Assembly: GCF_014270065.1 (NCBI RefSeq) | Contig: NZ_JACNME010000002.1 | Span: forward strand, 186,001-250,000 | DNA: 64,000 bases | Origin: Quadrisphaera sp. RL12-1S | GTDB taxonomy: Bacteria > Actinomycetota > Actinomycetes > Actinomycetales > Quadrisphaeraceae | Direction of reading: 5' to 3' | In this document: piece after piece, positions 2,419 through 49,901 of the stretch | Layout: each line of letters opens with the position of its first letter | Position numbering within the stretch: position 1 is the first letter of the stretch | Position numbers and translations under genes: made by a program | Notes under the pieces: model-generated | What the model was told of the DNA's origin: nothing | What the model saw: only the letters and a program-made list of their open reading frames with translations | Databases searched by the model: none

Positions 2419-2444
2419 GCCGCTGCTGACCTGGTGGCCTGCTG

Positions 2445-4151
2445 TCAGGCGGTGGTGTCGAGCCCGTACTGGTCGCGCGCGCCAGCCGGGGTGAGGTGGC
2501 CGTCGAGGACGTCGTCGCGGACCCGCTGGGGGTCGCGCTCGGCGGCCGGGCCGTAGCCGCCCCCGCCGCCGGTGGAGCACCGCAGCACGTCGCCGGCGCG
2601 CAGGCGCAGGCCGTTGGCCTTGAGCACCCGCCGCTCGTCGGGGCGGCCGGGGTTGACGACGACGTCGGGGCCGACGGCGTCCTGCCCTCCGAACAGGCCC
2701 CAGGCGGGCTGCTGGGAGCGCTCGAACCACAGCGAGACCGTGCAGTCGGTGAGCATCTCGTACTGCCGGACCACGCCGTCGCCGCCCCGGAACCGGCCGG
2801 CGCCGCCGGAGTCGGGCCGCACCCGGTACTCGGTGATGCGCATCGGGTAGCGCGTCTCGAGCACCTCCACCGGCAGGTCCTTGAGGGACCCGTTGACGTT
2901 GTTGATGAGCGCGGTCTCGCCGTCGCTGCCCTCCCAGGCGCCCCAGCCGCCGACGGTCGCCTCGAGGGTCACGTAGTCGCGGCCGTTGCGCGGGTCGTTG
3001 CCGGCCGTGAGCACGATCATGGAGTCCCCGAAGGAGGCGCCCGCCACCCGGTCGGGCACGGCCGGGGCCAGCGCCTTGGCCACCAGGTCGATGAGCAGAC
3101 CCAGGTGGGAGAAGTACCACTGGCACGCGGCGGGGGCCACGGCGCCGAGCACCGAGCCCCGGCGCACCTGGGTGGTCATCGTGCGAAAGCTGCCGCCGTT
3201 GCCGGGCAGGTCGGGGGAGACCAGCAGCTTGTAGCCGACCCGCAGCGCCGAGACCGCCTGCGCCACCCCGCAGTTCACCGGGCCGGTCTGCTGGTCGGCG
3301 GAGCCGGTGACGTCGAAGTCGATGCTCTCCCCGCGCACGGTGACGTCGAGCCGGATCGGCACCGGGGCGTCGAGGGTGACGCCGTCGCTGTCGAGCACGC
3401 CCTCGGCGCTGTAGACCCCGTCGGGGATCTGCGCGATCACCGCGCGCTCGAGCGCCTCGGTCTGGCGGAAGATCTCGTCGCGGGCGCCGAGGAGCACCTC
3501 CAGGCCGAAGCGCTCCACCACCTCCTGCAGCCGCTTCTCGCCCATGGTGATGCAGGCGACCATCGCCCTCATGTCGCCCAGGGTCGGGTAGGGGAAGCGG
3601 ACGTTGGTGGCGATGACGTCCACCAGTCCCTCCTGCTCCACCCCCGCCACCACGAGCCGCTGCGGCCCCAGGCGCAGCCCCTCCTGGAAGATCGAGGTGG
3701 AGTCCATGGAGCCGCCCGGGTCCTTGGACCCGACGTCCACCCAGTGCGCGCGGCTCGCGGTGAAGCCCACCAGCTGCTCGTCGTCCGTGCCCGCGCCGAC
3801 GAAGACGGGGCCGAAGAGGGTGACGTCGTTGAGGTGGGTGCCGCCGAGGTAGGAGTCGTTGAGGATCCACACGTCGCCCGGCCGCCAGACCCCGCGCCCG
3901 AAGCGCTCCTCGGTGGCGAGGGTGCAGGTCTCCAGGTTCCCCAGGAAGATCGGCAGGCCCGCGGACTGCCCCAGCACCTGGTGGTCGGCGTCGAGGAGGG
4001 CGACCACGCAGTCGCCGCCCTCGTAGATGATCGGGGTGTACGCGGAGCGGATCAGGGTGGCGTTCATGTCGTCCGCCGCCGCGTTGAGCGCGTTGCGGAT
4101 GATCTCCACGGTGACCGGGTCGACGGTGCTGCTCGTCGGGGTGGTGCTCAT
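2445..4151 (-). CDS. hyuB: Hydantoinase B / oxoprolinase family protein
   Basis: A 568-residue protein matching the HyuB half of the ATP-dependent hydantoinase/5-oxoprolinase family at full length. The N terminus DPVTVEIIRNALNAAADDM and the following GDCVVALLD and GDVWILNDSYLGGTH segments are family hallmarks, and the glycine-rich end GGGGGYGPAAERDP is also typical. These enzymes open five-membered cyclic amides such as hydantoins, N-methylhydantoin or 5-oxoproline in the cytoplasm with ATP and need the HyuA partner. The ATG overlaps the hyuA stop (ATGA), giving a two-gene coupled unit. A much longer in-frame extension to about 6356 lies over hyuA on the same strand and is a shadow. Substrate specificity cannot be read from sequence. 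Confidence 0.93.
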   Translation of the reverse strand: MSTTPTSSTVDPVTVEIIRNALNAAADDMNATLIRSAYTPIIYEGGDCVVALLDADHQVLGQSAGLPIFLGNLETCTLATEERFGRGVWRPGDVWILNDSYLGGTHLNDVTLFGPVFVGAGTDDEQLVGFTASRAHWVDVGSKDPGGSMDSTSIFQEGLRLGPQRLVVAGVEQEGLVDVIATNVRFPYPTLGDMRAMVACITMGEKRLQEVVERFGLEVLLGARDEIFRQTEALERAVIAQIPDGVYSAEGVLDSDGVTLDAPVPIRLDVTVRGESIDFDVTGSADQQTGPVNCGVAQAVSALRVGYKLLVSPDLPGNGGSFRTMTTQVRRGSVLGAVAPAACQWYFSHLGLLIDLVAKALAPAVPDRVAGASFGDSMIVLTAGNDPRNGRDYVTLEATVGGWGAWEGSDGETALINNVNGSLKDLPVEVLETRYPMRITEYRVRPDSGGAGRFRGGDGVVRQYEMLTDCTVSLWFERSQQPAWGLFGGQDAVGPDVVVNPGRPDERRVLKANGLRLRAGDVLRCSTGGGGGYGPAAERDPQRVRDDVLDGHLTPAGARDQYGLDTTA

Positions 4152-6214
4152 GCGCGGGCCTCCTGCTGGCGGATGACGAGGGTGCCGTCGTCGTCGACGG
4201 TGACGGTGTGCGCGGGGGGCACCACGGTGGTCGCGGTCCCCTCGAGCACGACCGCGGGACCGGAGAAGCCGTGCCCGGCGAGCAGGTCGTCGCGGTGGAC
4301 GACGAGCGCGTCGTGCGCGGCGCCGGCGAAGACGACCCGGCGGGTGGTGCTCGCGAAGGCGTCGGTCTCGGCCCGCGGGTGGGGGTGGCGCGGCGGTGCG
4401 CCCAGGTCGCCCGTGGCCGTGGTCCGCAGGGTCACCAGCTCGATCGGGGCGCCGGGGTTGGCGTGTCCGTAGCGGGCCTGGTGCGCGGCGGTGAACCGCT
4501 GCGCCAGGGCCGTGGTGAAGCCCTCCACCAAGGGCTCGTCGGCACCGGTGAGCGGCACGGTGAGGGTGAACTCCTGGGCCTCGTAGCGCACGTCGACGGC
4601 GTGGGTGACGCTGCGGTCGGCGGCGGGCACGCCCTCGGCGGCGAGGTCGGCCAGTCCCTGCTGCTCCAGGCGCGACAGGACCCCGCGCACCTGCTCGCCG
4701 TCGACGTCGGCGTCCAGGCGGTAGTGCGGCTCGGTGTAGTCGCGCCGGATCTTCGTGTGCAGCATCCCCCACGCCGAGAACGCGCCCGGCAGGCGCGGCA
4801 CGAGCACCTCGGGGATCCCCAGCTCGTCGGCGAGGAACACCGCGTGCATGGGTCCCGCGCCGCCGAAGGCCACCAGGGAGGAGGTGCGCGGGTCGATGCC
4901 GCGCGCCACGGTGATGGTGCGGACCGCCTGCGCCATGGTGGCGTTCGCGACGTCGCAGACGCCCTCGGCCATGGCCTGCGCGCTCAGCCCGAACTGCTCC
5001 CCGAGCGCTCCGAGGGCCTGTTCCGCCGACGCCGCGTCCAGGGTCATCTGCCCTCCGGCGAAGCCCTCGGCCTCGATGCGCCCCAGCACGAGGTTCGCGT
5101 CGGTGACCGTCGGCTCGGTGCCGCCGCGGCCGTAGCAGACAGGTCCCGGGCGGGCACCCGCCGAGCGCGGTCCCACCCGCAGCCCACCCGCCTCGCTCCA
5201 GGCCACGGAGCCGCCGCCGGCGCCGACGGTGTGGATGTTGACGATGCTCATGAGCATCGGCAGGCCCTCGAGCTCGGCCTCCGCGGTCACGTCGGGCTCG
5301 CCGTCCACCACCAGCGACACGTCGAAGGACGTGCCGCCCATGTCCACGCCGATGAGGTGCGGGCGCCCGCTGCGCGCCGACAGCTCGGCGCAGGCGATGG
5401 CTCCGCCGACCGGGCCGGACAGCAGCGTCTGCAGGGGCCGCTCCTGCGCCGAGGCCGCGGTGACGATGCCCCCGGAGGACTGCATGACGTGCAGCGGCAC
5501 CGCCAGGCCGTCGTCGTCGAGGCGGCGCTCCAGGCGCTGCAGGTAGCGCCGCACCACCGGGCCCGTGTAGGCCTCGACCACCGCCGAGGAGGTGCGCTCG
5601 TACTCGCGCCACTCCTTGGCCGCCTCGTGCGAGAGCGACACCGACACGTCGGGGCCCAGCTCCTCGCGCAGCACCTCCCGGGCGCGCAGCTCGTGGGCCG
5701 GGTTGGCGTAGGAGAACAGCAGCGCGACGGCGACCGCCCCGTGGCCCTCGTCGCGCACCCGCTTCGCGGCCGCGCGCACGGCGTCCTCGTCCAGCGGGAC
5801 GAGCTCGCTGCCGTCCGCAGCGATCCGCCCGCCCACGCCCACCACGTCGCGCCGGGGCACCAGCGGGGTCGGCTTGCGGTAGTGCAGGTCGTACAGGCGG
5901 CGCCGGGTGCCGCGGGCGATGTGGTAGCTGTCCTCGACGCCCGCGGAGGCCAGCAGCAGCACCGGCACGCCGCGCCGCTCCAGGAACGCGTTGAGGCCCT
6001 GGGTGGTCCCGTGCACGAGGAAGGAGATCTCCGCCGGGGAGTCCACGACCGCGCCCAGGCCCGCCAGGACGCCGTCGGACAGGTCCGCCGGGGTGGTGGA
6101 GGCCTTGGTGGCCGTCACCGCGCCGGTCACCTCGTCGTAGTGGACGACGTCGGTGAAGGTCCCGCCGATGTCCATGCTGACCCGGGCTCGCCCCGGGTGC
6201 GCCTGCTCGGGCAT
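4148..6214 (-). CDS. hyuA: Hydantoinase A / oxoprolinase family protein
   Basis: A 688-residue protein, the usual length for HyuA. It begins RVSMDIGGTFTDVV, the N-terminal hydantoinaseA/oxoprolinase motif of the ASKHA-like ATP-binding fold, and has a second ATP-site motif GVDMGGTSFDVSLV around residue 290. It would supply the ATP-dependent activation of the cyclic amide while HyuB completes ring opening. The start is ATG 6214, preceded on the minus strand by GAGGAG six bases away, which decides it against the longer open frame. The gene is divergent from the ornithine-cyclodeaminase-like gene, with 195 bp between them, and coupled to hyuB. DUF917 plus PucR nearby support a catabolic role in nitrogen scavenging. 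Confidence 0.93.
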   Translation of the reverse strand: MPEQAHPGRARVSMDIGGTFTDVVHYDEVTGAVTATKASTTPADLSDGVLAGLGAVVDSPAEISFLVHGTTQGLNAFLERRGVPVLLLASAGVEDSYHIARGTRRRLYDLHYRKPTPLVPRRDVVGVGGRIAADGSELVPLDEDAVRAAAKRVRDEGHGAVAVALLFSYANPAHELRAREVLREELGPDVSVSLSHEAAKEWREYERTSSAVVEAYTGPVVRRYLQRLERRLDDDGLAVPLHVMQSSGGIVTAASAQERPLQTLLSGPVGGAIACAELSARSGRPHLIGVDMGGTSFDVSLVVDGEPDVTAEAELEGLPMLMSIVNIHTVGAGGGSVAWSEAGGLRVGPRSAGARPGPVCYGRGGTEPTVTDANLVLGRIEAEGFAGGQMTLDAASAEQALGALGEQFGLSAQAMAEGVCDVANATMAQAVRTITVARGIDPRTSSLVAFGGAGPMHAVFLADELGIPEVLVPRLPGAFSAWGMLHTKIRRDYTEPHYRLDADVDGEQVRGVLSRLEQQGLADLAAEGVPAADRSVTHAVDVRYEAQEFTLTVPLTGADEPLVEGFTTALAQRFTAAHQARYGHANPGAPIELVTLRTTATGDLGAPPRHPHPRAETDAFASTTRRVVFAGAAHDALVVHRDDLLAGHGFSGPAVVLEGTATTVVPPAHTVTVDDDGTLVIRQQEARA

Positions 6215-6409: not shown

Positions 6410-7426
6410 GTGCCGACCACAGCGCCAGCCTCGGGACTGCCCCACCACGACGCCCACCGCGTGCTCAGCGCCGTCGGCCCCCGCCGGGCCACCGACCTGC
6501 TGCGCCAGGCGCTGATCGCGGGGCTCGACCCGGCGGCTGCCCCGCCCCGGTCGAGCACCGCGCTCGGCGGCGGCGAGCTGCTCACCATGCCGGCGGCCGT
6601 CGGCGACCGGGCGGGTGTGAAGCTGGCGTTCGTCGCCCCCGGCAACGCCGCGCTCGGCCTGCCCCGCATCACCGGCGTCTACGTCCTCCTCGACGCGGCG
6701 ACCCTCGTGCCGCTGGCCACCCTGGACGCCCCCTCCCTGACGCGGCTGCGCACGCCCGCGACGTCCCTGCTCGCCGTGCAGTCGGTGCTGGCCGGCCGCC
6801 CCGGCCGCCCCGGCTCGACGCGCAGCCCGCTGCGCGCCGTCGTCGTCGGCAGCGGTGTGCAGGCGCAGGGCCACGTCGCCGCGCTGCTGGCGTGCCTGGG
6901 GCCGGGCACGCCCGTGGAGCGCGCGGTGGGCCACCTCGACGTGCTCGTGCGCGACCCCGCCCGCGTCGGACCGACCGGTGAGCTGGTCGGCGACGCGGAC
7001 GGGGACCTGCTGGCGCTCGGCTCGCCCGCGGCGCGGGAGGCGCTCGCCGCGGCCGACGTGGTGGTCTGCGCGACCTCCGCCGGGGAGCCGCTGTTCGACT
7101 CGTCGGTGCTCCGCGAGGACGTCGTCGTCGTCGCGGTGGGCACCCACGAGCCGGACCGGCGCGAGCTGGACGCGGCGCTGCTGGCACGGGCCGCCGTGGT
7201 CGTCGAGGACCGCGCGACGGCGCTGCGGGAGGCGGGTGACGTCGTCATGGCCATCGCGGAGGGCGCGCTCGAGGAGGGCGACCTGCTGCCCCTGGCCGAC
7301 CTCGTCACCGGCCGGGCCCCCGTCCCCTCCGGCGCGGTGGTGTTCAAGGGCACCGGCATGGCGTGGCAGGACCTCGTGGTGGCCTCCGCCGTCCACGACG
7401 CCGTCAGCTCGCGACCTGGGCCCTGA
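6410..7426 (+). CDS. Ornithine cyclodeaminase / mu-crystallin family protein
   Basis: About 338 residues from a GTG at 6410. The N-terminal half has the family substrate-binding layout, including GGGELLTMPA, GVKLAFVAPGN and LGLPRITGVYVLLDAATL. It is followed by a Rossmann segment, VVVGSGVQAQGH, that binds NAD(P), and by VVVVAVGTHEPDRRELD near the end. Members include ornithine cyclodeaminase (ornithine to proline plus ammonia), ketimine reductases and lysine or alanine relatives. Proximity to putA makes an ornithine-to-proline-to-glutamate route attractive, but this is inference. The 3' end overlaps the convergent LysR gene by 23 bases. A CAGGCT hexamer ends eight bases before the GTG; no clear Shine-Dalgarno sequence is present, so the start is moderately certain. 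Confidence 0.85.
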   Translation: MPTTAPASGLPHHDAHRVLSAVGPRRATDLLRQALIAGLDPAAAPPRSSTALGGGELLTMPAAVGDRAGVKLAFVAPGNAALGLPRITGVYVLLDAATLVPLATLDAPSLTRLRTPATSLLAVQSVLAGRPGRPGSTRSPLRAVVVGSGVQAQGHVAALLACLGPGTPVERAVGHLDVLVRDPARVGPTGELVGDADGDLLALGSPAAREALAAADVVVCATSAGEPLFDSSVLREDVVVVAVGTHEPDRRELDAALLARAAVVVEDRATALREAGDVVMAIAEGALEEGDLLPLADLVTGRAPVPSGAVVFKGTGMAWQDLVVASAVHDAVSSRPGP

Positions 7427-8366
7427 GCGCGGCGACGACGACGGCGAGGCCCGGCTGGCCGGACGCCGCGGCGCGCTGCGCGGCGAACACCGTCCGGCGC
7501 GGCTGTCCCGGCAGCTCCACCAGGCGCGCGGCGCTCTCTCGCCCGGCGTGGACGAGGTCGGGCAGGACGGCGACGGCGCAGCCGGTCTCCACCAGGCGCA
7601 GGTGCGTCTGCAGGTCGGCGCTGGTGAACCGCACGTCCGGCTCGAAGCCGCTCGTGCGGCAGGTCTGCTCGGCGAAGTGCCGGCTCGCGGTGCCTTCCGG
7701 CTCGGCCACCCACGGCAGGGACGCGGCGCTCGCGAGGTCGTGGACGCCGGGCGCGAGGTGCTCGGGCGGCAGCGCCAGGCGCAGCGCGTCGCGGACCAGC
7801 TCGGTGCGCACCAGCCCGGGCAGGTGCGGCGCCGAGTGCGCCGGGTACTCCTCGGCGACGACGACGTCGAAGTCTCGCGCCTGTGACGCCGCTGCCCGGA
7901 CCGCCGCAGACTCCAGCGCGGCGCCGGGCTCGGCCTGCACCACCTCCACCCGCAGGTCGGGGTGCTCGGCGGTGAGCTGCCGCAGCGCCCCGGGCACCAG
8001 CGCCAGGGCCGCGGACTGGAACACCGCCAGCCGCACTCGCCCGGTCAGCGGCGCCGACGGGCCCCCGGCGCGCTCGCGCGCGGTCACCGCCACCCGGGCC
8101 TGGGCGCGCTCCAGCACGTCGAGCACCTCCCCGGCGGCGGCCACCAGCTCCTCGGCCTCGGCGGTGAGCACCACGCGGCGGCCGGTGCGGCGCAGCAGGG
8201 GCGCCCCCGCCTCGCGCGCCAGCAGCGTCAGCTGCTGGGAGACGTGGGAGGGGGAGTAGCTGAGCGCCTCGGCGGCCGCGGCGAGCGTGCCGCGGGTGGC
8301 GACCTCCCGCAGGAGCAGCAGCCGCCTCACGTCGAGCACCGGTGTCCCGCCCCTCCCTCGAACCAT
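7404..8366 (-). CDS. LysR-family transcriptional regulator
   Basis: A 320-residue LysR regulator. The winged helix-turn-helix is at residues about 12-70 (LLLREVATRGTLAAAAEAL, then YSPSHVSQQLTLLAREAG), and the effector domain follows from about 100. ATG 8366 is used; GTG 8339 would shorten the protein by nine residues and is a real alternative. The gene is divergent from putA across 82 bp and overlaps the end of the ornithine-cyclodeaminase-like gene. Two TCACC/GGTGA inverted repeats lie between it and putA, so regulation of putA and of itself is likely. Known putA regulators in actinobacteria are often PucR-like, so a LysR here is somewhat unusual. Confidence 0.9.
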   Translation of the reverse strand: MVRGRGGTPVLDVRRLLLLREVATRGTLAAAAEALSYSPSHVSQQLTLLAREAGAPLLRRTGRRVVLTAEAEELVAAAGEVLDVLERAQARVAVTARERAGGPSAPLTGRVRLAVFQSAALALVPGALRQLTAEHPDLRVEVVQAEPGAALESAAVRAAASQARDFDVVVAEEYPAHSAPHLPGLVRTELVRDALRLALPPEHLAPGVHDLASAASLPWVAEPEGTASRHFAEQTCRTSGFEPDVRFTSADLQTHLRLVETGCAVAVLPDLVHAGRESAARLVELPGQPRRTVFAAQRAAASGQPGLAVVVAALRAQVAS

Positions 8367-8378
8367 CACCTGCGGTGA
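8366..8378. promoter_or_regulatory. Candidate LysR operator, copy 1
   Basis: Inverted repeat TCACC-TGC-GGTGA. It overlaps the LysR start codon and lies 12 bases downstream of a TACCGT-like -10 for that gene (reverse complement at 8379-8384), a layout suited to autorepression. It shares both half-sites with the second copy centred about 31 bp away, roughly three helical turns. Confidence 0.5.
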
Positions 8379-8398
8379 ACGGTACTGCGCCTCAACGC

Positions 8399-8408
8399 TC
8401 ACCGGTGA
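8399..8408. promoter_or_regulatory. Candidate LysR operator, copy 2
   Basis: Perfect 10-base palindrome TCACCGGTGA centred about 45 bases upstream of the putA ATG, next to where RNA polymerase would bind. Together with copy 1 this resembles the paired recognition and activation sites of LysR regulators. Confidence 0.5.
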
Positions 8409-8448
8409 TGACCTGTTGCTCCCGTCGGGTCCGGCGCAGACTCCCTGC

Positions 8449-11400
8449 ATGACGACGACGACCGCACCCTCGAGCAGCACCACCCCTGCACCGCAGGTGC
8501 GCGTGGAGGACGTCTCAGCGCTGGTCAGCCGCTGGCTGGACGAGGCCGCAGCGCACCCCCTCAAGGGCGCTGAGGCCCGCGCCGCGGCGCAGCTGGCCGG
8601 GCTGCTGCGCGACCCCGACGGGCTCGCGTTCGCCACCGGGTTCGTCGACGGTGTGGTCCGCCCCGAGGACCCGGCCGCCGGCGCCGCCGTGCTGCACCGC
8701 CTCGCCCAGCGCCCGCCGGCGTTCCTCTCCCCGGCCCTGCGCTCGGCCGTGAAGGCCGGAGGCGCGCTCGGGCCGGTGGTGCCCGGCGTCGTCGTCCCGG
8801 CCGCCAAGCGGGCCCTGCGGGAGATGGTGGGCCACCTCGTGGTCGACGCCACCGACGCCAAGCTGGGCAGGTCGCTGCAGCGCATCCGGCGCGCCGGGGA
8901 CGAAGCGGCCCCCGTGCGCCTCAACCTCAACCTCCTCGGGGAGGCCGTGCTCGGCGGGCGCGAGGCGGACCGCCGCCTGGCCGGGCTGCGCCGCCTCGTG
9001 GAGCGCCCCGACGTCGACTACGTCTCGGTGAAGACCTCCGCCGTGGTCGGCCCGCACGCGCCGTGGGGGTTCGACGAGGACGTCGAGCACGTCGTCCAGC
9101 GGCTGGCCCCGCTCTACGAGACCGCCGCGCGCACCAGCGACGGCCCGACGTCCCGACCGACCTTCCTGAACCTCGACATGGAGGAGTACAAGGACCTCGA
9201 CCTCACCCTGGAGGTCTTCACGCGCCTGCTCGACCGGCCGTCCCTGCGCGGCTACGAGGCCGGGATCGTGCTGCAGGCCTACCTGCCCGACGCGCTCGCC
9301 GCCATGCAGCGGCTGCAGTCGTGGGCGGCCCGGCGGGTGGCCGCCGGGGGCGCTCCGATCAAGGTGCGCCTGGTCAAGGGCGCCAACCTCTCCATGGAGC
9401 GCGTCGACGCCGACGTCCACGGCTGGCCGCTGGCCACCTGGGACTCCAAGGCCGCCTCCGACGCCCACTACAAGCGGGTGCTCGACTGGGCGCTCACCCC
9501 CGAGCGCACCGCCAACGTCAGGCTCGGCGTGGCCGGGCACAACCTCTTCGACATCGCCCACGCGTGGCTGCTCGCCGGGGCGCGCGGTGCCCGCGACGGC
9601 ATGGAGGTGGAGATGCTGCTCGGCATGGCCGCCGGGCAGGCCGCCGCGGTGCGCCGCGAGACGGGCTCGCTGCTGCTCTACACGCCCGTGGTGCACCCGG
9701 CCGAGTTCGACGTCGCCATCGCCTACCTCGTGCGCCGCCTGGAGGAGGTCGCCAGCCCCGACAACTTCATGTCGGCCATCACCGAGATCACGCCGTCCTC
9801 GCCGCTGTTCGCCCGCGAGCTGGCACGCCACGAGGAGTCGCTGCAGCTGCTGGCCACCTGGCGCGAGGAGGCGCTCGCGGAGCGCGGCGACGCCGACGCG
9901 CCGCCTCCGGCGCACCGCCGCTACGACGTGCCGTCGGACCGGTACCTCGCACTGCCCCACGCGCCGGGGGAGGAGGGCCGCCCCTTCGTCAACACCCCCG
10001 ACTCCGACCCGGCCGTCGAGGGCCACCGCGCCTGGGTGCGCGCCGCGCTCGCCCGGGCCGTCACGTCGCGCGCCGGGACCACCGGCCGCTTCAGCGCGGC
10101 CGGCTCCCTGGTCGACGGTGCTGACGGTGAGGAGCTGCTCGACGACCTCCTCGCCCGCACCGCCGCCGCCGGCGAGGCGTGGGGACGCCGCCCCGCGCAC
10201 GAGCGGGCCGCGGTGCTGCACGCCGCGGGCCGCGCGCTGGAGGCGCGCCGCGCCGAGCTGCTCGAGGTGATGGCGTCGGAGGCCGGCAAGACCGCCGACC
10301 AGGCCGACCCGGAGGTCTCCGAGGCCGTCGACTTCGCCCACTACTACGCGGACGCGGCCCTGGAGCTGGCCGCGGTCGAGGCCCGCGACGGCGTCCGGGC
10401 CGTGCCCGCGCGGCTCACGCTGGTGACCCCGCCGTGGAACTTCCCCGTGGCGATCCCCGCCGGAGGCGTGCTCGCGGCGCTGGCGGCGGGCTCCGCCGTC
10501 GTCCTCAAGCCCGCCGAGCCCGTCCAGCGCTGCGGCGCGGTGCTCGCCGAGGCCATCGCCTCCGCGCTCGCGGAGGTCGGGGGCCCCGACGCCGCAGCCG
10601 CGCTGCGCGTGGTCACCGTCGACGAGGGTGGGCTAGGCCGACAGCTCGTGAGCTCGCCGCGGGTGGACCGCGTCATCCTCACCGGTGCGTACGCCACCGC
10701 CGAGCTGTTCCGCACCTTCCGCGCCGACCTGCCGCTGCTGGCGGAGACGTCGGGCAAGAACGCGATGATCGTCACGCCGTCGGCCGACCTCGACCTCGCC
10801 GCGCGCGACGTGGTCGCCTCGGCGTTCGGGCACGCGGGGCAGAAGTGCTCCGCCGCATCGCTCGTCGTGCTCGTCGGGTCGGTGGCCACCTCGCGGCGCT
10901 TCCACGACCAGCTCGTCGACGCGGCGTCGTCGCTCGTGGTCGGCGCCCCGTGGGACCCGCGCACGCAGGTCGGGCCGGTCATCGAGCGGCCGCAGCCCGG
11001 ATCGGCGCTGCACTGGGGGCTCACCGAGCTGGAGCCCGGGCAGCACTGGGCCCTCGCGCCCCGCGCCCTCCCCGCTCCGGCTGACGCGCCGACGCTGGAG
11101 GGCCGGCTGTGGACGCCGGGCATCCGCTCCGGCGTGACCCGCGGCTCGAGGTACCACAGCACCGAGGTGTTCGGGCCGGTGCTCGGCGTCATGACGGCGC
11201 GCACGCTGGACGAGGCGATCGACGTCGTCAACGACGTTGACTACGGCCTCACCTCCGGCATCCACTCCCTCGACGCCGGCGAGCTGCGCCGCTGGGCCTC
11301 GCGGATCCAGGCGGGCAACCTCTACGTCAACCGCGGCACCACCGGCGCGATCGTGCAGCGCCAGCCGTTCGGCGGGTGGAAGCGCTCCGCCGTCGGCGCC

Positions 11401-43315: not shown

Positions 43316-45549
43316 AACGGCGGCTCGACGGGGAAGCCGCGGGTGGGGTCGACCGGCCTGCGCACCGGACCGGTCGACGGCACCCGCGACGGTGGTGCCC
43401 ACGCGCGGTAGCGCGGGATCGGGTCGGTGTACGGCCGGGGGCGGGTGACGTGGTCCAGGCCGAGGGGGGAGCGCCAGTGGGCGTGCCCAGCGGTGCACCG
43501 CCAGTGCTGCCAGCGCGCGCTCCACGCTACGTCGGCGGCGGTGCGGGGATCACCGGCGTGCTTGCGCCGGTGCCAGCGGCGGGACTTGGGGTCCAGGTTG
43601 CACGCGCACGTCGGACCGCCCTGGCCGGGCAGCTGCCCCCAGGCGGTGACGTGGTCCAGGTCCGCCTGGTGGGCGGGCAGGAGGTCCCCGGGACCGGTGG
43701 AGGTGCCCCACAGCGCGCTGACATGGCGGCGCAGCGCCTCGGGCGGGTCGTGAGGCCCACCGCCAATGGCTCCCAGGGGGCAGGTGGTGGGGTCGACCGG
43801 CTCGCAGGTCCCCGCCTGGCAGGGATCGGCAGGCTCGACAGCACCACCGACGTCACCGACGTCGCCGGCGGCGAGGTCGGAGTCAGTGTCAGAGATGAGT
43901 TCTGCTGGTGGCGGCGGGAGCTGCTGGATCGGTCGGCCCCGGAAGAACCCCGCCCGCCTGCCACCGGACGGAGGCTGCTGCGGTGGTCGCGGCGGTGGTG
44001 GTGGTCCGCCGTCGCCACCCGGGGCTTGCGGGCCTCCGGGATCGGGGCCGGGGTCGGGGGTGTCGGGGCCGGGGTCGGTGAGCCAGGAGGCGGGGTAGGT
44101 GTGCCCGTCCACGGCGATGAGGTCACCGGTGAACGGGTCGGTCAGCACCCGCCGCAACCGGCACCGTCCCCAGCCCAGTGCGGTGCGCACCAGCCAGGCC
44201 GGCACCCACCCGTACCCCTCGACGTAGCCGGGGTCGTCATCGACGCCGACCAGCGCGGGCAGGCTGATGCGGATCTCCATGCCCGTGCCCACGGCCCACC
44301 CCGCGCTGGAAGCGTCCAACGCCTCCGGGCGCACCGCCCCCAACGCGGTCACCGCGGCGTCGAAGGCGTGCGCGGCCACCGACCGCTCATCAGGCTGGTC
44401 GGCGTCATCGGCGTAGGGGTCCCCACCGCCGGGGGCGGGCACCCCCTCGCGGGCGGCGTCGCGGGCGGCGGCCAGGTTCGCCCTGGCCGCCGCTCGCACC
44501 TTCAGTGCTACCGCGGCCACCGCGGTGACCGGCCCGATCAGGCTCAGCTTGGCCTGCCCGTCGCCCAGCGCGGTGTAGCACACCCGCCGCGCGGAGGTCT
44601 TGGCCCGCACCCGCCGCGTCGCCGCTTCCGGGTCGTGCAGCTGCACCTGGTGGTCGACCTCCTCCCGCAGGCTGGCCAGGGTCAGCCCCATCCCGACCGC
44701 GTCCGCACCGAACAGGTGCTCATCGATGGTGCCCGCGACCACGTCATCGACCTCGGACAGCCGGTTCACCGTCGCGGTCAGCCCCGCCATGGACAGCTGC
44801 CCCGCAGCCAGGCGCTCCAAGGCGTGCGGCATCACCGCCACCACCGTCTGGGCCAGCAGCACCTGGCTGGCGGCGGTGTACTCCGTCCACCCCAGCGCCG
44901 GAGCCAGCTCAGCGACCAGGTCGTCCAACCCCGCCGCAGCCACCGCCTGCGCCTGGGCGGCGAAGGCGGCCCCCACCCCCTCACCCACCCCCTCACCATC
45001 CTGCTCAGACGGGACCGGACCGCGGCGGGCGCGCCGGTACAGCGGCGCCAACGCGGCGAGGTCGTCGATCCGCTCGGCCTGGATCGAGCCGATGAGGGCT
45101 TCCTTGGTGCGCATCCGGGTCAGCACCCGCGCGGCGGTGGCGACGTCCTCCCGCTCGGCGCGCACCGCCGCGACCACCGCCCGACCGGCCTCGTCCTGAG
45201 CCGCCAGCCAGGAGCAGAAGGCGAAGACGATGGCGTCGGTGGCATCGTCGGGACCAGGCACGGGGCGCAGGTCGGCATCGAGGTGGTCGTAGGCGCAGCG
45301 CAGCTGCACCTCGCTGAGCGCGTCAGGGCCGGGCAGGCGCCCGGCGGCCTCCACGGCGTCGCGAGCGGGACGGTGGCGTTCAGGGCGCGGTCCGCGCAGC
45401 GGTGGCCGGGTCATCACCCCGGCGACGCGGCGCCGGCGGCGGCGCCTGGGCAGCGGCAGTGGAACCCCAGTGGCGTCGGTGGCATCGGCAGCACCGGCGA
45501 CGTGGGCAGGTGGGGGCGTCTCCTCGGGGCGCCCGTCCACCTGGCTCAT
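43312..45549 (-). CDS. DUF222 / HNH endonuclease-domain protein (copy 1)
   Basis: A 745-residue protein of the 13E12-type family widespread and multicopy in actinobacteria. DUF222 spans about 75-480 (AAGLDDLVAELAPALGWTEY, LLAQTVVAVMPHALERLA, then SMAGLTATVNRLSEVDD). A Pro/Gly-rich linker follows, and a C-terminal HNH nuclease domain has DHVTAWGQLPGQGG, NLDPKSRRWHRRKH. Function unproven; nuclease activity is inferred. ATG 45549 is supported by a -35/-10 pair (TTGCTC-N18-TAAGAT) ending seven bases upstream. Confidence 0.9.
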   Translation of the reverse strand: MSQVDGRPEETPPPAHVAGAADATDATGVPLPLPRRRRRRRVAGVMTRPPLRGPRPERHRPARDAVEAAGRLPGPDALSEVQLRCAYDHLDADLRPVPGPDDATDAIVFAFCSWLAAQDEAGRAVVAAVRAEREDVATAARVLTRMRTKEALIGSIQAERIDDLAALAPLYRRARRGPVPSEQDGEGVGEGVGAAFAAQAQAVAAAGLDDLVAELAPALGWTEYTAASQVLLAQTVVAVMPHALERLAAGQLSMAGLTATVNRLSEVDDVVAGTIDEHLFGADAVGMGLTLASLREEVDHQVQLHDPEAATRRVRAKTSARRVCYTALGDGQAKLSLIGPVTAVAAVALKVRAAARANLAAARDAAREGVPAPGGGDPYADDADQPDERSVAAHAFDAAVTALGAVRPEALDASSAGWAVGTGMEIRISLPALVGVDDDPGYVEGYGWVPAWLVRTALGWGRCRLRRVLTDPFTGDLIAVDGHTYPASWLTDPGPDTPDPGPDPGGPQAPGGDGGPPPPPRPPQQPPSGGRRAGFFRGRPIQQLPPPPAELISDTDSDLAAGDVGDVGGAVEPADPCQAGTCEPVDPTTCPLGAIGGGPHDPPEALRRHVSALWGTSTGPGDLLPAHQADLDHVTAWGQLPGQGGPTCACNLDPKSRRWHRRKHAGDPRTAADVAWSARWQHWRCTAGHAHWRSPLGLDHVTRPRPYTDPIPRYRAWAPPSRVPSTGPVRRPVDPTRGFPVEPPF

Positions 45550-45556
45550 GGCGGTG

Positions 45557-45586
45557 ATCTTACCGTACAGGTGTTCGGGTGAGCAA
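45557..45586 (-). promoter_or_regulatory. Promoter of DUF222-HNH copy 1
   Basis: Minus strand: TTGCTC (45581-45586), 18-base spacer, TAAGAT (45557-45562), then seven bases to ATG 45549. This is the best sigma-70-like promoter in the window and implies a leaderless mRNA. Confidence 0.55.
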
Positions 45587-45727
45587 GTCAGAAACAGCCC
45601 CTGACCTGGTCCTGAGCGACCCCAGGCGCCTCTCTGCGTCCCGACCGGGGCACCCAGGGGCTCCCCTGCCGGAGCGCACGGTCCGTATCTCCTGGGGCTC
45701 GGTGGAGCCGCCCCGCGTGCGAGGCGG

Positions 45728-48175
45728 TCAGCTGAGGCAGACCGCGAGCACCGCGACGTCGTCGGAGGAGGCAGCAGGCAGCATCTGCGCGAGCACGGCG
45801 TCCACCAGCTCCTCCAGGTCACCGCAGGTCGCGACCGCCTCGCCGACCACCACCAGCAGCCGGGCGATGCCCTCGGACAGCGCCTGCCCGCGCCGCTCCA
45901 CCAGCCCGTCGGTGTACAGCAGGATCATCGCGCCGGGCGCGAGCCGCGTGCGGTGCAGCCGCCGGTTGGTGCGCGGGTCCACGCCCATGAGCAGGTCGGT
46001 GGTCCTCGCCTCCAGCAGCGAGACCCGCCCGTCGGCGTCCACCACCACCGGCGGCGGGTGCCCGGCGTTGGACCACTGCAGCTCCACCGACCCCGGCAGC
46101 ACCTCCGAGCCGACCCCGTCCAGCGCCGGGTCGTCGCTGCCGGGCACGGCCAGCCGGACCACGGCCGCTGTCGCGGTGGTCTCCACGCCGGAGGCGCGCA
46201 TCACCTCGTCGGCGCGGGTCAGCACCTGGCGCGGGTCGTCGGTGCCCACCATGCCCAGCGTCCGCACGATGGAGCGCAGCTGCGACATCGACGCCGCCGC
46301 CTGCGTGTCGTGTCCCATGACGTCACCGATGACAGCGACGGCCGCCCCGTCGGGCTGGGTGAAGACGTCGTAGAAGTCCCCGCCCACGGCGGCGGCCTCC
46401 GCGGCGGCGACGTAGCGCACCGCCACCTTCACGTGCTCCGGCGCGGCGGTGGGGGAGAGGTCCAGCAGTGCGCGCTGGAGCCCTTCGGCGAGGTCGCGCT
46501 GCTGGCGGAACAGGCGGGCGCGGTCCAGCGCGAGGCCGGCGCGGGCGGCGATGTCGGCGCCCAGGGCCAGCTCGGTGGCCTGCAGCGGCGCGGTGGCGCC
46601 GTCCGTGGCCAGCGTCATGAGGCCGAGGGTGCGGCCGCGGCTGCGCAGGGGCAGCGTCACCATCGACGTCGGGTCGAGCTGCTCCAGCGAGGTGCGGGCC
46701 GGTCCCGGCACCAGCAGGGCGCTGATCATGGCGACGACGTCGGGGGCCTGCGCCCCCTCGTCGTCGTCCTCTGAGCCTGCGCGGGGCGCTGCGCCGAGGG
46801 CGGGAGCGGGCAGCGCCAGCACGGCCTGAGCGTCCGGCCCCACCATCGACGCCAGCGCCTGGCGGCCCTCCGGCGTCAGGGAGGTCAACCGGGTGCGCGC
46901 GTGCTCGGCGAGCACGTCGAGCCGGGTCTCGTCGCGGTGCCACCAGGCGACGTCGTGCAGGCCCAGGCGCCCCCCGCGGGAGCCCGCGGCCACGGCCCGC
47001 TGGCTGTCCCGGGTGGGCAGCGGCAGCTGCACGCCGTCGGAGACGACGGCGAGGACGGCGAAGTCGGCGAGGGCGGGCACCACGAGGTGGGCCAGGCGCT
47101 CCAGCGCCTGCTGCGGGTCCACCACCTCCGACAGCTGCCGCGTCACCTCCGCCAGCAGCTGCAGGCGGGCGTGCGCGCCCTCGACGTCGGCCCGCGCCGC
47201 CTCGGCCTCCCCGCGGGCGGTCTCCGCCTCGGCGCGGGCCTCCTTGGCGGCGGCGAGCGCGCGGTCGCGCTCGGCGTCCGCGGCCACCCGCGCGGACACG
47301 TCGGTCTGGATGCCCACGTAGTGCGTGAGCAGCCCGTCGGCGTCGTGCACCGGGCTGAGCGCCACCTGGTTCCAGAACGCGGTGCCGTCAGCGCGGAAGT
47401 TCAGCAGCGTCTCGGTGATGGGCTCCCCGGCGCGCAGCGCCGCGCGGATCCGGCCGGTGGCCGCGCGGTCGGTGGCGGGCCCCTGCAGGAAGCGGCAGTT
47501 GGTGCCCACCGTCTGCTCGAAGGTGTACCCGGTCACCGCGGTGAAGGCCGGGTTCACCCAGACCAGCGGCATGTCGGGGGTGCGGGCGTCAGCCACCGTG
47601 AACGACAGCCCCGTGGCCAGCACTGCCGCCTCGCGCACCGCTACGCCGTCGCCCGGGGCACCTGCCGCCTGGGCCGCCTGGACCGAGCCGGGCAGGTCCG
47701 GGCCCGTCTCACCGCCGGTGGCGTGGGCCACCTCGGCGCGCTGCTGCAGCAGCGCGCGCTCGGCCACCGGGAGGAACACCACCAGGGCGTGGCCCGCCAG
47801 GTTGGGCGCGTCGTCCAGCGGCAGCGCCACCACCCACAGCGGCTCGCGGCGCTCGCCGAGGTCGGTGCGGCGGGCGGCGGACACGCCCTGCCCGGCCACC
47901 GGCTCGAAGCGCGCGATGCGCGACAGCGGGTGCGCCGTCTCGTCGAGGGGGTCTCCGTCGATGTCGCGCAGGTCGGCGGCGCTGGCCCACTCGTCCACGG
48001 TGACCGGCAGCGCCAGGCCCGGGGCCATCTGCCCGGCCACCTCGTTGGCGTACAGCACCGTGCGCGAGGGAAGGTCCACCATGAGCACGGCCGCCGACGC
48101 GTCGGGCCGGACCTGGACGACGGTGGTCCGGCGCTCGGAGGACGAGCCCGCAGTCACGGGGTCGGAGCCGTTCAC
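45728..48175 (-). CDS. PAS-LOV-GAF-PP2C (SpoIIE-like) phosphatase, putative blue-light sensor
   Basis: An 815-residue cytoplasmic protein. A degenerate PAS domain (about 18-125) precedes a LOV domain (185-300) with VNPAFTAVTGYTFEQTVGTN CRFLQG: C227 is the flavin-adduct cysteine of the GxNCRFLQ motif, and NFRADGTAFWNQVALSPV plus THYVGIQTDVS complete the flavin pocket. A heptad-like linker (295-340, AKEARAEAETARGEAE) leads to a GAF domain (345-555). The PP2C/SpoIIE phosphatase (580-815) has metal-binding acids in GGDFYDVF, GDVMGHD and SSDDVAV. It should dephosphorylate an anti-anti-sigma protein; the STAS gene just upstream is the obvious substrate. GTG 48175 follows GAAGGCGAG. Confidence 0.92.
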   Translation of the reverse strand: MNGSDPVTAGSSSERRTTVVQVRPDASAAVLMVDLPSRTVLYANEVAGQMAPGLALPVTVDEWASAADLRDIDGDPLDETAHPLSRIARFEPVAGQGVSAARRTDLGERREPLWVVALPLDDAPNLAGHALVVFLPVAERALLQQRAEVAHATGGETGPDLPGSVQAAQAAGAPGDGVAVREAAVLATGLSFTVADARTPDMPLVWVNPAFTAVTGYTFEQTVGTNCRFLQGPATDRAATGRIRAALRAGEPITETLLNFRADGTAFWNQVALSPVHDADGLLTHYVGIQTDVSARVAADAERDRALAAAKEARAEAETARGEAEAARADVEGAHARLQLLAEVTRQLSEVVDPQQALERLAHLVVPALADFAVLAVVSDGVQLPLPTRDSQRAVAAGSRGGRLGLHDVAWWHRDETRLDVLAEHARTRLTSLTPEGRQALASMVGPDAQAVLALPAPALGAAPRAGSEDDDEGAQAPDVVAMISALLVPGPARTSLEQLDPTSMVTLPLRSRGRTLGLMTLATDGATAPLQATELALGADIAARAGLALDRARLFRQQRDLAEGLQRALLDLSPTAAPEHVKVAVRYVAAAEAAAVGGDFYDVFTQPDGAAVAVIGDVMGHDTQAAASMSQLRSIVRTLGMVGTDDPRQVLTRADEVMRASGVETTATAAVVRLAVPGSDDPALDGVGSEVLPGSVELQWSNAGHPPPVVVDADGRVSLLEARTTDLLMGVDPRTNRRLHRTRLAPGAMILLYTDGLVERRGQALSEGIARLLVVVGEAVATCGDLEELVDAVLAQMLPAASSDDVAVLAVCLS

Positions 48176-48288
48176 GATCTCGCCTTCGGTGGTCGTCCGC
48201 CTCGAGGTCGAAGCGCTCGCCCACCCGGGTGGTGGGCCGGTCGGCCAGGGGAGAGCGATGAGGCACCCCCGTGCCGGTGTCGATGATG

Positions 48289-48705
48289 TCACCCCCCCGG
48301 GTGGTCGCCGCCGGAGCGGTGCCCTCCGTCCGGGAGACGCCCGGTCGCCGCGGACACGGCCTCCGCGGCGGAGGGGTGCAGCGCGACCACCCTGTCGAGC
48401 CCGGTCTGCGCGAGCCGCGCCCGCAGCTGCGGACCGGACCCGGCGATGCTGAACCCCGCCCGGTGCGCCAGCGCCCGCTTGAGCAGGCTGACCAGCGCCC
48501 CGAGGCCGGCGGAGTCGACGAAGGCGACCCGCGACGCGTCCAGCACCACCACCGCCGGCTCCACCGGCCCCGCCAGCGCCTCGTCCACCAGCTCCCGCCC
48601 CTGCACCAGCAGCTCGTGGGCGGAGATGAGGTCCAGGTCGCCCGCCACCTCGAGCACGGGCACTCCCTGGTCGTGGTGGAGCTGGATGAGCAGGCCGTGA
48701 GCCAT
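48289..48705 (-). CDS. STAS-domain anti-anti-sigma factor
   Basis: A 138-residue protein with a single STAS domain. GVPVLEVAGDLDLISAHEL and VLDASRVAFVDSAGLGALV are diagnostic; S65 in FVDSAGL is the phosphorylatable serine of SpoIIAA/RsbV proteins. A 20-residue Gly/His-rich tail follows the domain. When unphosphorylated it would bind an anti-sigma kinase and free a sigma factor; the LOV phosphatase 113 bp downstream would activate it. No RsbW-like kinase is in the window. ATG 48705 is preceded by GAAGGCGAG, nearly the same initiation region as the phosphatase gene. Confidence 0.9.
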   Translation of the reverse strand: MAHGLLIQLHHDQGVPVLEVAGDLDLISAHELLVQGRELVDEALAGPVEPAVVVLDASRVAFVDSAGLGALVSLLKRALAHRAGFSIAGSGPQLRARLAQTGLDRVVALHPSAAEAVSAATGRLPDGGHRSGGDHPGG

Positions 48706-48854
48706 GAGCTCGCCTTCGCCGGGGACCACCGCTCGGCCCGTGGTGGTGCGGATCCCCCCAGCGTCGATCACGTCGAGCTGCAGCGCCCGTCGATCAGCCC
48801 CGGACGCCGACAGGGCGCGGCGTCACTGACGGCGTCACTGACCGCGCAGGCCTC

Positions 48855-48860
48855 TACGGT
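48855..48860 (+). promoter_or_regulatory. -10 element TACGGT, leaderless start
   Basis: TACGGT ends six bases before GTG 48867, as for the aldo/keto reductase. Confidence 0.5.
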
Positions 48861-48866
48861 GCCCCG

Positions 48867-49202
48867 GTGACCGCGCCCGGCCCCGAGCCGTCCACCCAGC
48901 CGTTCCCCGAGGTGGTGACCCTGTGCGGGTCCACCCGCTTCCGCGAGGCCTTCGAGTCCGAGCAGCGGCGCCTCACGCTGGAGGGTCGCATCGTCCTCAG
49001 CGTCGGGATGTTCGGCCACGAGGAGGGCCTCGACCAGACCTCGCCCGCCAAGGCCGACCTCGACGCCCTCCACCTGCGCAAGATCGACCTCAGCCAGCGC
49101 ATCCACGTCATCAACGTGGGCGGCTACGTCGGCACCAGCACGCGCCGGGAGGTCGCCTACGCGCGGGCCCGCGGCGTCGCGGTCACCTACCTCGAGCCCT
49201 GA
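48867..49202 (+). CDS. Conserved nucleoside 2-deoxyribosyltransferase-like small protein
   Basis: A 111-residue protein. VVTLCGSTRFREAFESEQRR, IVLSVGMFGHEEG and IDLSQRIHVINVGGYVGTST followed by RREVAYARARG are a well-conserved bacterial and phage sequence related to the nucleoside 2-deoxyribosyltransferase fold (DUF4406-like). Enzymatic activity in this short family is not established. GTG 48867 is supported by TACGGT six bases upstream. It is divergent from the STAS gene, and 132 bp separate it from the sigma operon. Confidence 0.85.
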   Translation: MTAPGPEPSTQPFPEVVTLCGSTRFREAFESEQRRLTLEGRIVLSVGMFGHEEGLDQTSPAKADLDALHLRKIDLSQRIHVINVGGYVGTSTRREVAYARARGVAVTYLEP

Positions 49203-49290: not shown

Positions 49291-49334
49291 GGTGGTGAGG
49301 CCATCACCGCGGTGGCGCCCGAGGAGACCCGGTG

Positions 49335-49901
49335 ATGTCAGCAGTGGCCACCACGCACGACGACGACCACCCGCCGCCCGGCCCGGCGGAGGCGGCAGCG
49401 CCCGCGTTCGACGACCTGTTCGTCCAGCGCTGGGCCGCCACCGTCCGCCTCGCGCTGCTCCTCGTCGACGACGAGGCCAGCGCCGAGGACGTCGCCCAGG
49501 AGGCCTTCACCGGCCTGCTGCGGCAGTGGCACCAGCTGGCCGACCCGAGCCGCGCGCAGTCCTACCTCCACCGGGCCGTGGTCAACGGCGCCCGGTCGGT
49601 GCTGCGACGCCGCCGCACCGCCCGCGCCTGGACCCCGCCCCACGCCGCCCCGGGCCCCTCCGCCGAGGAGCTCGCGCTCCTGGACGACGAGCGCCGCCAG
49701 GTCATCGCCGCCGTCGCCGCGCTGCCGCAGCGCCAGCGCGAGGTGGTGGTGCTGCGGTACTGGTCCCAGCTCGACGAGGCTGCCACCGCGGAGGCCATGG
49801 GCATCACCCGCGGCACCGTGAAGTCCACCGCCCACAAGGCCCTCGCCGCGCTGCACCGCCAGCTCGGCGAGACCCCGCCGCCCACCGGGAGCACGCGATG
49901 A
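49335..49901 (+). CDS. SigE-family ECF RNA polymerase sigma factor (operon 1)
   Basis: A 188-residue ECF sigma factor. Region 2 is FDDLFVQRWAATVRLALLLV and DEASAEDVAQEAFTGLLRQW; region 4 is ALPQRQREVVVLRYWSQLDE, then ATAEAMGITRGTVKSTAHKA. This is the SigE-70/ SigE-family type that usually lacks a zinc anti-sigma partner. ATG 49335 follows GAGGAG by eight bases, better than GTG 49332. The stop overlaps the next ATG (ATGA), so it is coupled to the PASTA membrane protein, which is a plausible anti-sigma factor. Confidence 0.93.
   Translation: MSAVATTHDDDHPPPGPAEAAAPAFDDLFVQRWAATVRLALLLVDDEASAEDVAQEAFTGLLRQWHQLADPSRAQSYLHRAVVNGARSVLRRRRTARAWTPPHAAPGPSAEELALLDDERRQVIAAVAALPQRQREVVVLRYWSQLDEAATAEAMGITRGTVKSTAHKALAALHRQLGETPPPTGSTR

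Follow-up and report, generated by a model that had tools for sequence, protein, structure and literature searches.

A LOV-domain phosphatase and its likely STAS substrate in Quadrisphaera: a candidate blue-light input to a split SigF-type switch

In the SigF switch of Mycobacterium smegmatis, RsbW1 is the anti-sigma factor and RsbW2, in which the kinase motifs are kept, is the only kinase for RsfB, whose Ser63 is the switch (PMC7693655). We describe here a gene pair of Quadrisphaera sp. RL12-1S, coding for a STAS protein and for a PP2C phosphatase with a LOV domain, which may feed a switch of similar composition. The pair lies in a window of 64,000 nt, i.e. the whole stretch of DNA that was analysed (positions 186,001–250,000 of NZ_JACNME010000002.1, assembly GCF_014270065.1). 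Like the M. smegmatis switch, the candidate system comprises two RsbW-like proteins, a STAS serine, a PP2C phosphatase near a kinase gene and a SigF-type sigma factor, and the separation of anti-sigma and kinase candidates in this genome mirrors that of RsbW1 and RsbW2. The two systems differ in their input and layout, however: in M. smegmatis the nearby phosphatase has a receiver domain and the regulon responds to inhibition of respiration (PMC7693655), whereas the Quadrisphaera phosphatase bears a LOV photoreceptor and its candidate partners are encoded at scattered places.

Three other systems share parts of this design. RsbP of Bacillus subtilis, which acts on RsbV, also combines a PAS-type sensor, a helical linker, a PPM phosphatase, a STAS substrate and a sigma output, but it serves energy stress with RsbQ, whereas the Quadrisphaera protein has a photoactive-type LOV domain together with a further PAS domain and a GAF-like one (PMC12143880, PMC3183031). 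In Rv1364c, sensor, PP2C, RsbW-like and STAS domains are fused into a single protein (PMC7693655), whereas the Quadrisphaera proteins are separate. In YtvA and Lmo0799 (RsbL), blue light acts on a SigB-type factor via LOV and STAS; there, LOV and STAS belong to one stressosome protein, whereas here the LOV domain is carried by the phosphatase and the STAS protein stands apart (PMC4844311). The same source, a 2014 review, names SpoIIE-type phosphatases as one kind of partner of flavin photoreceptors in bacteria. In the literature searched, which included few subscription papers, we recognized no work that examined a LOV-PP2C and a STAS partner functionally. The kind of system is already known; what is new is the input and the gene order of the partner switching.

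The original prediction, made from the sequence of this locus, proposed that a LOV-controlled PP2C probably acts on the STAS protein encoded beside it and, by partner switching, may place a sigma factor under the control of blue light. The recurrence of the pairing and the operons found in Pseudonocardia, both detailed below, support this proposal, and we give a probability of about 0.6 to the pair being a light-gated phosphatase and its substrate that feed a split SigF switch. Judged from gene context, the pairing of phosphatase and STAS substrate appears highly probable; a SigF-type output is rated slightly above an even chance. Were the proposal true, the photoreceptor itself would be the anti-anti-sigma phosphatase, with neither a stressosome nor a two-component relay. 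Such a pair would form a simple natural light-to-transcription part and would help to explain why LOV-PP2Cs are retained in many actinobacteria; two to five proteins would then suffice for a direct test of how light is connected to SigF-type stress responses.

Both genes lie on the minus strand of 45728–48705, as do all features of the window described below unless stated otherwise, the STAS gene first (48289–48705, ATG start, 138 residues), followed after a gap of 113 bp by the phosphatase gene (45728–48175, GTG start, 815 residues). The predicted phosphorylatable serine of the STAS protein is indeed present: Ser65 (codon 48511–48513) stands within DSAGLG and is the first residue of helix 65–80 in the structural model. 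The protein matches Pfam STAS (3.1e-16) and exceeds the cut-off of NCBIfam ant_ant_sig (56.5 bits versus 53.45), although it falls below that of the SpoIIAA equivalog TIGR02886 (29.8 versus 114.75 bits). An AlphaFold model built from 15 sequences shows a confident STAS fold (pLDDT 89.6), for which the best Foldseek matches were SpoIIAA bound to SpoIIAB, followed by TM1442, RsbV of the RsbV/RsbW complex and the UsfX–RsfB complex. STAS fold, D-S-x-G serine and ant_ant_sig score are all as expected of an anti-sigma factor antagonist, and the protein is a likely substrate of the adjoining phosphatase.

In the phosphatase, the two ends of the proposed signalling path are the best defined. The LOV domain (residues 183–292; 47300–47629) contains, as predicted, the photoactive-type Cys227 (codon 47495–47497) in GTNCRFLQ, together with the flavin-pocket residues of LOV photoreceptors, and matches a histidine-kinase LOV domain (phmmer 6.6e-34). 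The PP2C/SpoIIE domain (residues 582–814; 45734–46432), likewise predicted, scores 2.3e-35 with Pfam SpoIIE (122.7 bits versus a cut-off of 25) and has the five metal-binding aspartates of PPM/SpoIIE phosphatases (Asp600, Asp618, Asp756, Asp805 and Asp806). Both domains are also clear by fold. The closest fold match of the PP2C domain is the RsbU–RsbW part of Rv1364c (3ke6; 30% identity over 241 alignment columns), a protein in which we know of no LOV cysteine. The full order proposed at first, PAS-LOV-GAF-PP2C, holds firmly for LOV and PP2C and less so for the rest: the GAF match is below the Pfam cut-off (18.4 versus 22.4 bits), so that the domain at residues 354–524 (46604–47116) is termed GAF-like, with the AlphaFold model as its main basis, and the first PAS-like domain (residues 29–137; 47765–48091), with no Pfam match at E 0.01, is based on the model and on conserved columns. 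This model, from 60 sequences, has a pLDDT of 82.3 and a pTM of 0.51, a value low enough to make the relative placement of the domains unreliable. It also shows a long helix after the LOV domain (residues 294–349; 47129–47296), a putative coiled coil and output linker, and another leading into the phosphatase domain (residues 533–571; 46463–46579). The first of these helices is alanine-rich, and its coiled-coil character is weak by sequence, since even the most favourable register places large hydrophobic residues at only four of its 16 a/d positions. The protein also scores below the cut-off of the YtvA family NF052652 (117.2 versus 250 bits).

To place this architecture among relatives, the best 80 of 183 found in one scan were aligned together with a paralogue from the same genome (L129). 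The LOV residues N226, C227, R228, Q231, N259, N269 and Q290 and the five PP2C aspartates are kept in all 81 aligned sequences, some of these columns being partly preselected by scan peptides that spanned N269, Q290 and D600 among others, Cys227 lying outside them. Fewer sequences retain R244 (75) and N703 (57), and the LOV motif reads NCRYLQ in one relative (L096). The titles of the relatives' records name Kineococcus, Cellulomonas, Geodermatophilaceae, Pseudonocardia, Actinomycetospora and others, plus one unverified record titled Bacillus sp. With so many relatives having intact LOV and PP2C sites, the architecture is widespread and mainly actinobacterial, no one-off, and the earlier description of it as non-standard is not supported.

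This conservation also bears on what the phosphatase senses. The STAS protein could be dephosphorylated in response to an input other than light, such as the redox state of the LOV flavin, or a dominant PAS or GAF-like domain. The columns of the first PAS domain are conserved along with LOV, and YtvA has light-independent effects too (PMC4844311). Such a non-light input is nonetheless unlikely, as a redox-only flavin sensor would presumably have no need for the cysteine at position 227 that is found in every aligned sequence, and the same genome encodes a bacteriophytochrome-PP2C as well.

A shorter LOV-PP2C of 493 residues, with the motif GRNCRFLH, is present in the same genome (C11, approx. 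84.2–85.7 kb; L045 1489–2970, minus strand); it reads SGDFFD at the site where the window protein reads GGDFYD.

The pairing recurs within the genus. Six genomes provided 12 places which, with one locus from the relatives scan (L051), made 13 distinct loci, duplicate records with agreeing sequences and scores being counted once; L051 is absent from the genus-genome listing, even though genome G001 is matched by L054, a locus of the same named species. A STAS gene lies directly upstream of the phosphatase gene, on the same strand, at nine of these 13 loci and in at least two genomic contexts, and the D-S-x-G motif is kept in all nine paired STAS proteins. The genome of RL12-1S itself has two such pairs, that of the window and another at C4:290021-292731, whose phosphatases are 68% identical. 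By a crude uniform estimate, 0.00026 STAS adjacencies would be expected by chance per PP2C gene. In the phosphatase tree, the paired loci form clades A (window, L049, L160), B (L129, L052, L051, L167) and C (L050, L055), and the same three clades are recovered in the STAS tree. At seven of the nine paired loci the STAS stop overlaps a possible in-frame phosphatase start; indeed, all four phosphatase frames of clade B can start at a GTG overlapping the STAS stop, and each of the three clade A loci likewise has a frame that is uninterrupted from such an overlap onwards.

Three of the loci retrieved (L049, L052 and L053) belong to a record titled Streptomyces sp. NP160, in which the LOV-PP2C and its flanking genes resemble those of the window. 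The Streptomyces label is probably wrong, because the scores are identical to those of genome G003 of the window's genus.

A link to a sigma factor is suggested by Pseudonocardia. When home-made STAS, HATPase and sigma profiles were run against the 80 relatives' loci, four of the seven Pseudonocardia loci (L082, L095, L103 and L108) exhibited a STAS gene that reads away from the LOV-PP2C gene, followed on the same strand by an RsbW-type anti-sigma gene and a SigF-type sigma gene, each of these sigma factors having sigma-70 domains. The L082 sigma factor scores 288.1 bits with the SigBFG model (cut-off 234.35) and its anti-sigma neighbour passes Pfam HATPase_c_2. At a fifth locus (L105, Pseudonocardia sp. 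ICBG1293), the STAS gene is found 4.4 kb upstream, and the anti-sigma and sigma genes lie just past the locus; L128 stops at a contig end, and at L093 the profiles found no STAS–anti-sigma–sigma cluster. No SigF-type match was obtained in the available flanks of the other genera among the 80 loci. In L105, two transposase genes and a pRiA4b ORF-3-like gene (121–417 and 1525–4535) separate the LOV-PP2C from the STAS–anti-sigma–SigF genes.

In RL12-1S, by comparison, a complete partner-switching module was not found at the pair: no kinase or anti-sigma gene with its sigma gene was detected beside it, and candidates lie elsewhere in the genome. The statement that no kinase was visible is correct for the window and does not extend to the genome, which carries an RsbW-like protein with kinase motifs. 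Genome-wide, we obtained eight STAS matches (with the window protein as single query rather than a family model, so that this count is perhaps low), 34 HATPase_c_2 matches, 23 of them over the cut-off, and 13 SigBFG matches, two of them over the cut-off. A SigF gene at C7:48823-49641 is preceded by a 165-residue anti-sigma candidate (C7:48313-48810), which is found in all six genus genomes and matches anti-sigma-F RsbW/UsfX (8.5e-06) as well as the initial portion of B. subtilis RsbW (1.7e-10). This candidate has neither the E-x3-N box nor the D-x-G-x-G motif and is probably kinase-dead.

The search for an RsbW-like kinase, proposed as a check of the original prediction, returned a protein encoded at C2:292764-293291, a candidate partner for the STAS protein. 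It contains EACSNVVQH (N box) and DGGGG, and its residues 33–160 align with B. subtilis RsbW. Kinase motifs were tested on 15 of the 34 HATPase_c_2 matches; frames shorter than 210 residues that pass both expressions are L009, L011 and L015 (in L015 the second motif is outside the match), and longer ones are L014 and L016, the DxGxG expression being stricter than real kinases, as is shown by B. subtilis RsbW, which has D-E-G-D-S when aligned. Because of its top HATPase_c_2 score, the C2 protein is our best candidate for the kinase, and others exist.

The pair could also be light-gated while the STAS protein controls a target other than a sigma factor, for instance another kinase-like protein or an enzyme. 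The abundance of HATPase_c_2 matches leaves room for such targets, and the phosphatase has a weak match to the SiaA phosphatase model of a biofilm pathway (17.8 bits versus a cut-off of 700); in addition, the flanks of the Quadrisphaera pairs L049–L052, L055 and L129 yielded no SigB/F/G-type sigma gene, only an ECF-type (extracytoplasmic function) one in L049. In Pseudonocardia, however, a phosphatase of the same family adjoins STAS, anti-sigma and SigF genes, and we regard a non-sigma target as a doubtful alternative.

Several observations weigh against a dedicated pair feeding SigF. Four of the 13 genus loci are without a STAS gene; no STAS gene was detected by a home-made profile within approximately 1.7 kb upstream at 71 of the 80 relatives' loci, five of the 80 having less than 1.7 kb of upstream DNA; and no match to the window STAS was found near the short LOV-PP2C of C11, so a LOV-PP2C need not be accompanied by STAS. 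The unconstrained tree splits the paired STAS proteins, grouping them together being unrejected (p-AU 0.139). The wide synteny of the clade A loci, over many kilobases, makes their STAS adjacency less telling, and clades B and C may derive from one ancestral locus, leaving only two independent contexts, because L129 of clade B and L055 of clade C have two flanking genes in common and the two clades were not seen together in one genome. With regard to the partners, the C7 anti-sigma candidate is under the Pfam cut-off (24.2 versus 27.4); both it and the C2 protein score well below the RsbW equivalog NF003144 (46.3 and 50.1 versus 145) and are RsbW-like only; the C7 genes are on another contig and the C2 gene is 58 kb from the pair. 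Finally, 16 SpoIIE proteins exceed the cut-off in this genome, so that cross-talk is possible. Taken to the extreme, the adjacency would be incidental and the STAS protein would belong to another of these 16 phosphatases, as the solo copies in the genus and the relatives with none found nearby upstream could suggest. The recurrence at nine of 13 loci, the codon overlap throughout clade B and the low chance expectation make this very unlikely, and we retain the light-gated pair.

Under the light-gated proposal, a kinase encoded elsewhere, the C2 protein being the best candidate, would phosphorylate Ser65 and so keep the STAS protein inactive. Blue light would induce a Cys227–flavin adduct in the LOV domain, and the signal would pass through helix 294–349, the GAF-like domain and helix 533–571 to the PP2C domains, the alignment of which in a dimer would set phosphatase activity. 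PPM phosphatases are indeed controlled by sensor domains via helical linkers and dimer geometry (PMC12143880), and the two modelled helices are compatible with such a route. The phosphatase would then dephosphorylate the neighbouring STAS protein, phosphatases of this kind being described as acting on STAS proteins and reading docking surfaces (PMC11418112). The dephosphorylated STAS protein would bind the probably kinase-dead C7 anti-sigma candidate, freeing SigF. In this scheme we infer that flavin is bound, in which direction light acts, how specific the phosphatase is for its substrate, and which kinase, anti-sigma and sigma factors are the cognate ones.

The C2 RsbW-like gene is divergent from a gene for a bacteriophytochrome-PP2C (PAS_2-GAF-PHY-SpoIIE) at approximately 290.3–293.3 kb of C2 (RsbW-like gene at L135 9764–10291, plus strand; phytochrome gene at 7262–9664, minus strand). 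The RsbW-like gene is present in five of the six genus genomes and adjoins the N-terminal part of the phytochrome in those five, the PP2C end lying beyond the DNA examined in the other four. Speculatively, the LOV-PP2Cs (blue light; two with their own STAS protein) and the bacteriophytochrome-PP2C (red/far-red light) might oppose one RsbW2-type kinase, encoded by the gene beside that of the phytochrome. In such a colour-integrating general-stress switch, light quality would set the pool of active STAS protein, and hence SigF.

At a finer scale, the start regions of the two genes are alike. The common initiation sequence claimed for them, CGAAGGCGAG-N-TC, was borne out: its only two occurrences in the window are those at the STAS and phosphatase starts, none appeared in 100 shuffles, and the genome has seven copies. 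The sequence may tie the translation of the two genes together. The ribosome-binding-site-like sequence CGAAGGCGAGCTC (48706–48718) precedes the STAS gene, and the same sequence, CGAAGGCGAGATC (48176–48188), precedes the phosphatase GTG. An alternative in-frame GTG (48290–48292, overlapping the STAS stop codon as GTGA) would add 117 bp and give a phosphatase of 854 residues, so that 48176–48292 is either a spacer or a 39-codon extension. The extension has the same length and an open frame in all three clade A loci. Substitutions at the three codon positions number 12/13/16, 11/12/17 and 7/12/14 over its 39 codons in three comparisons, versus 59/50/217, 63/57/217 and 59/49/216 in the core. Because of this small codon-position bias, and because the GTG at 48175 with GAAGGCGAG is kept in all three clade A loci, window included, the start at 48175 (815 residues) is preferred over that at 48292, although either could be used. 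A frameshift after the STAS gene, considered as the spacer seemed to code in another frame behind a G run, was rejected, since L049 has a stop in that frame and the position of the STAS stop is kept.

No RNA families or tRNAs were found in the window, nor promoters or terminators in scans of 45400–49000. On the plus strand, 0.6 kb from the STAS gene, lies a SigE-family ECF sigma gene (49332–49901; TIGR02983, 141.6 bits versus a cut-off of 141.55). It could be proposed as the target of the pair, as its position is kept in NP160 and G002 and the second pair of this genome is flanked by another ECF-like gene. The whole region is syntenic in clade A, however, and no close homologue was seen at clades B and C (only matches above 45% identity being considered outside clade A). 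RsbW-type anti-sigma proteins do not usually hold ECF factors, and regulation of this gene by the pair appears most improbable.

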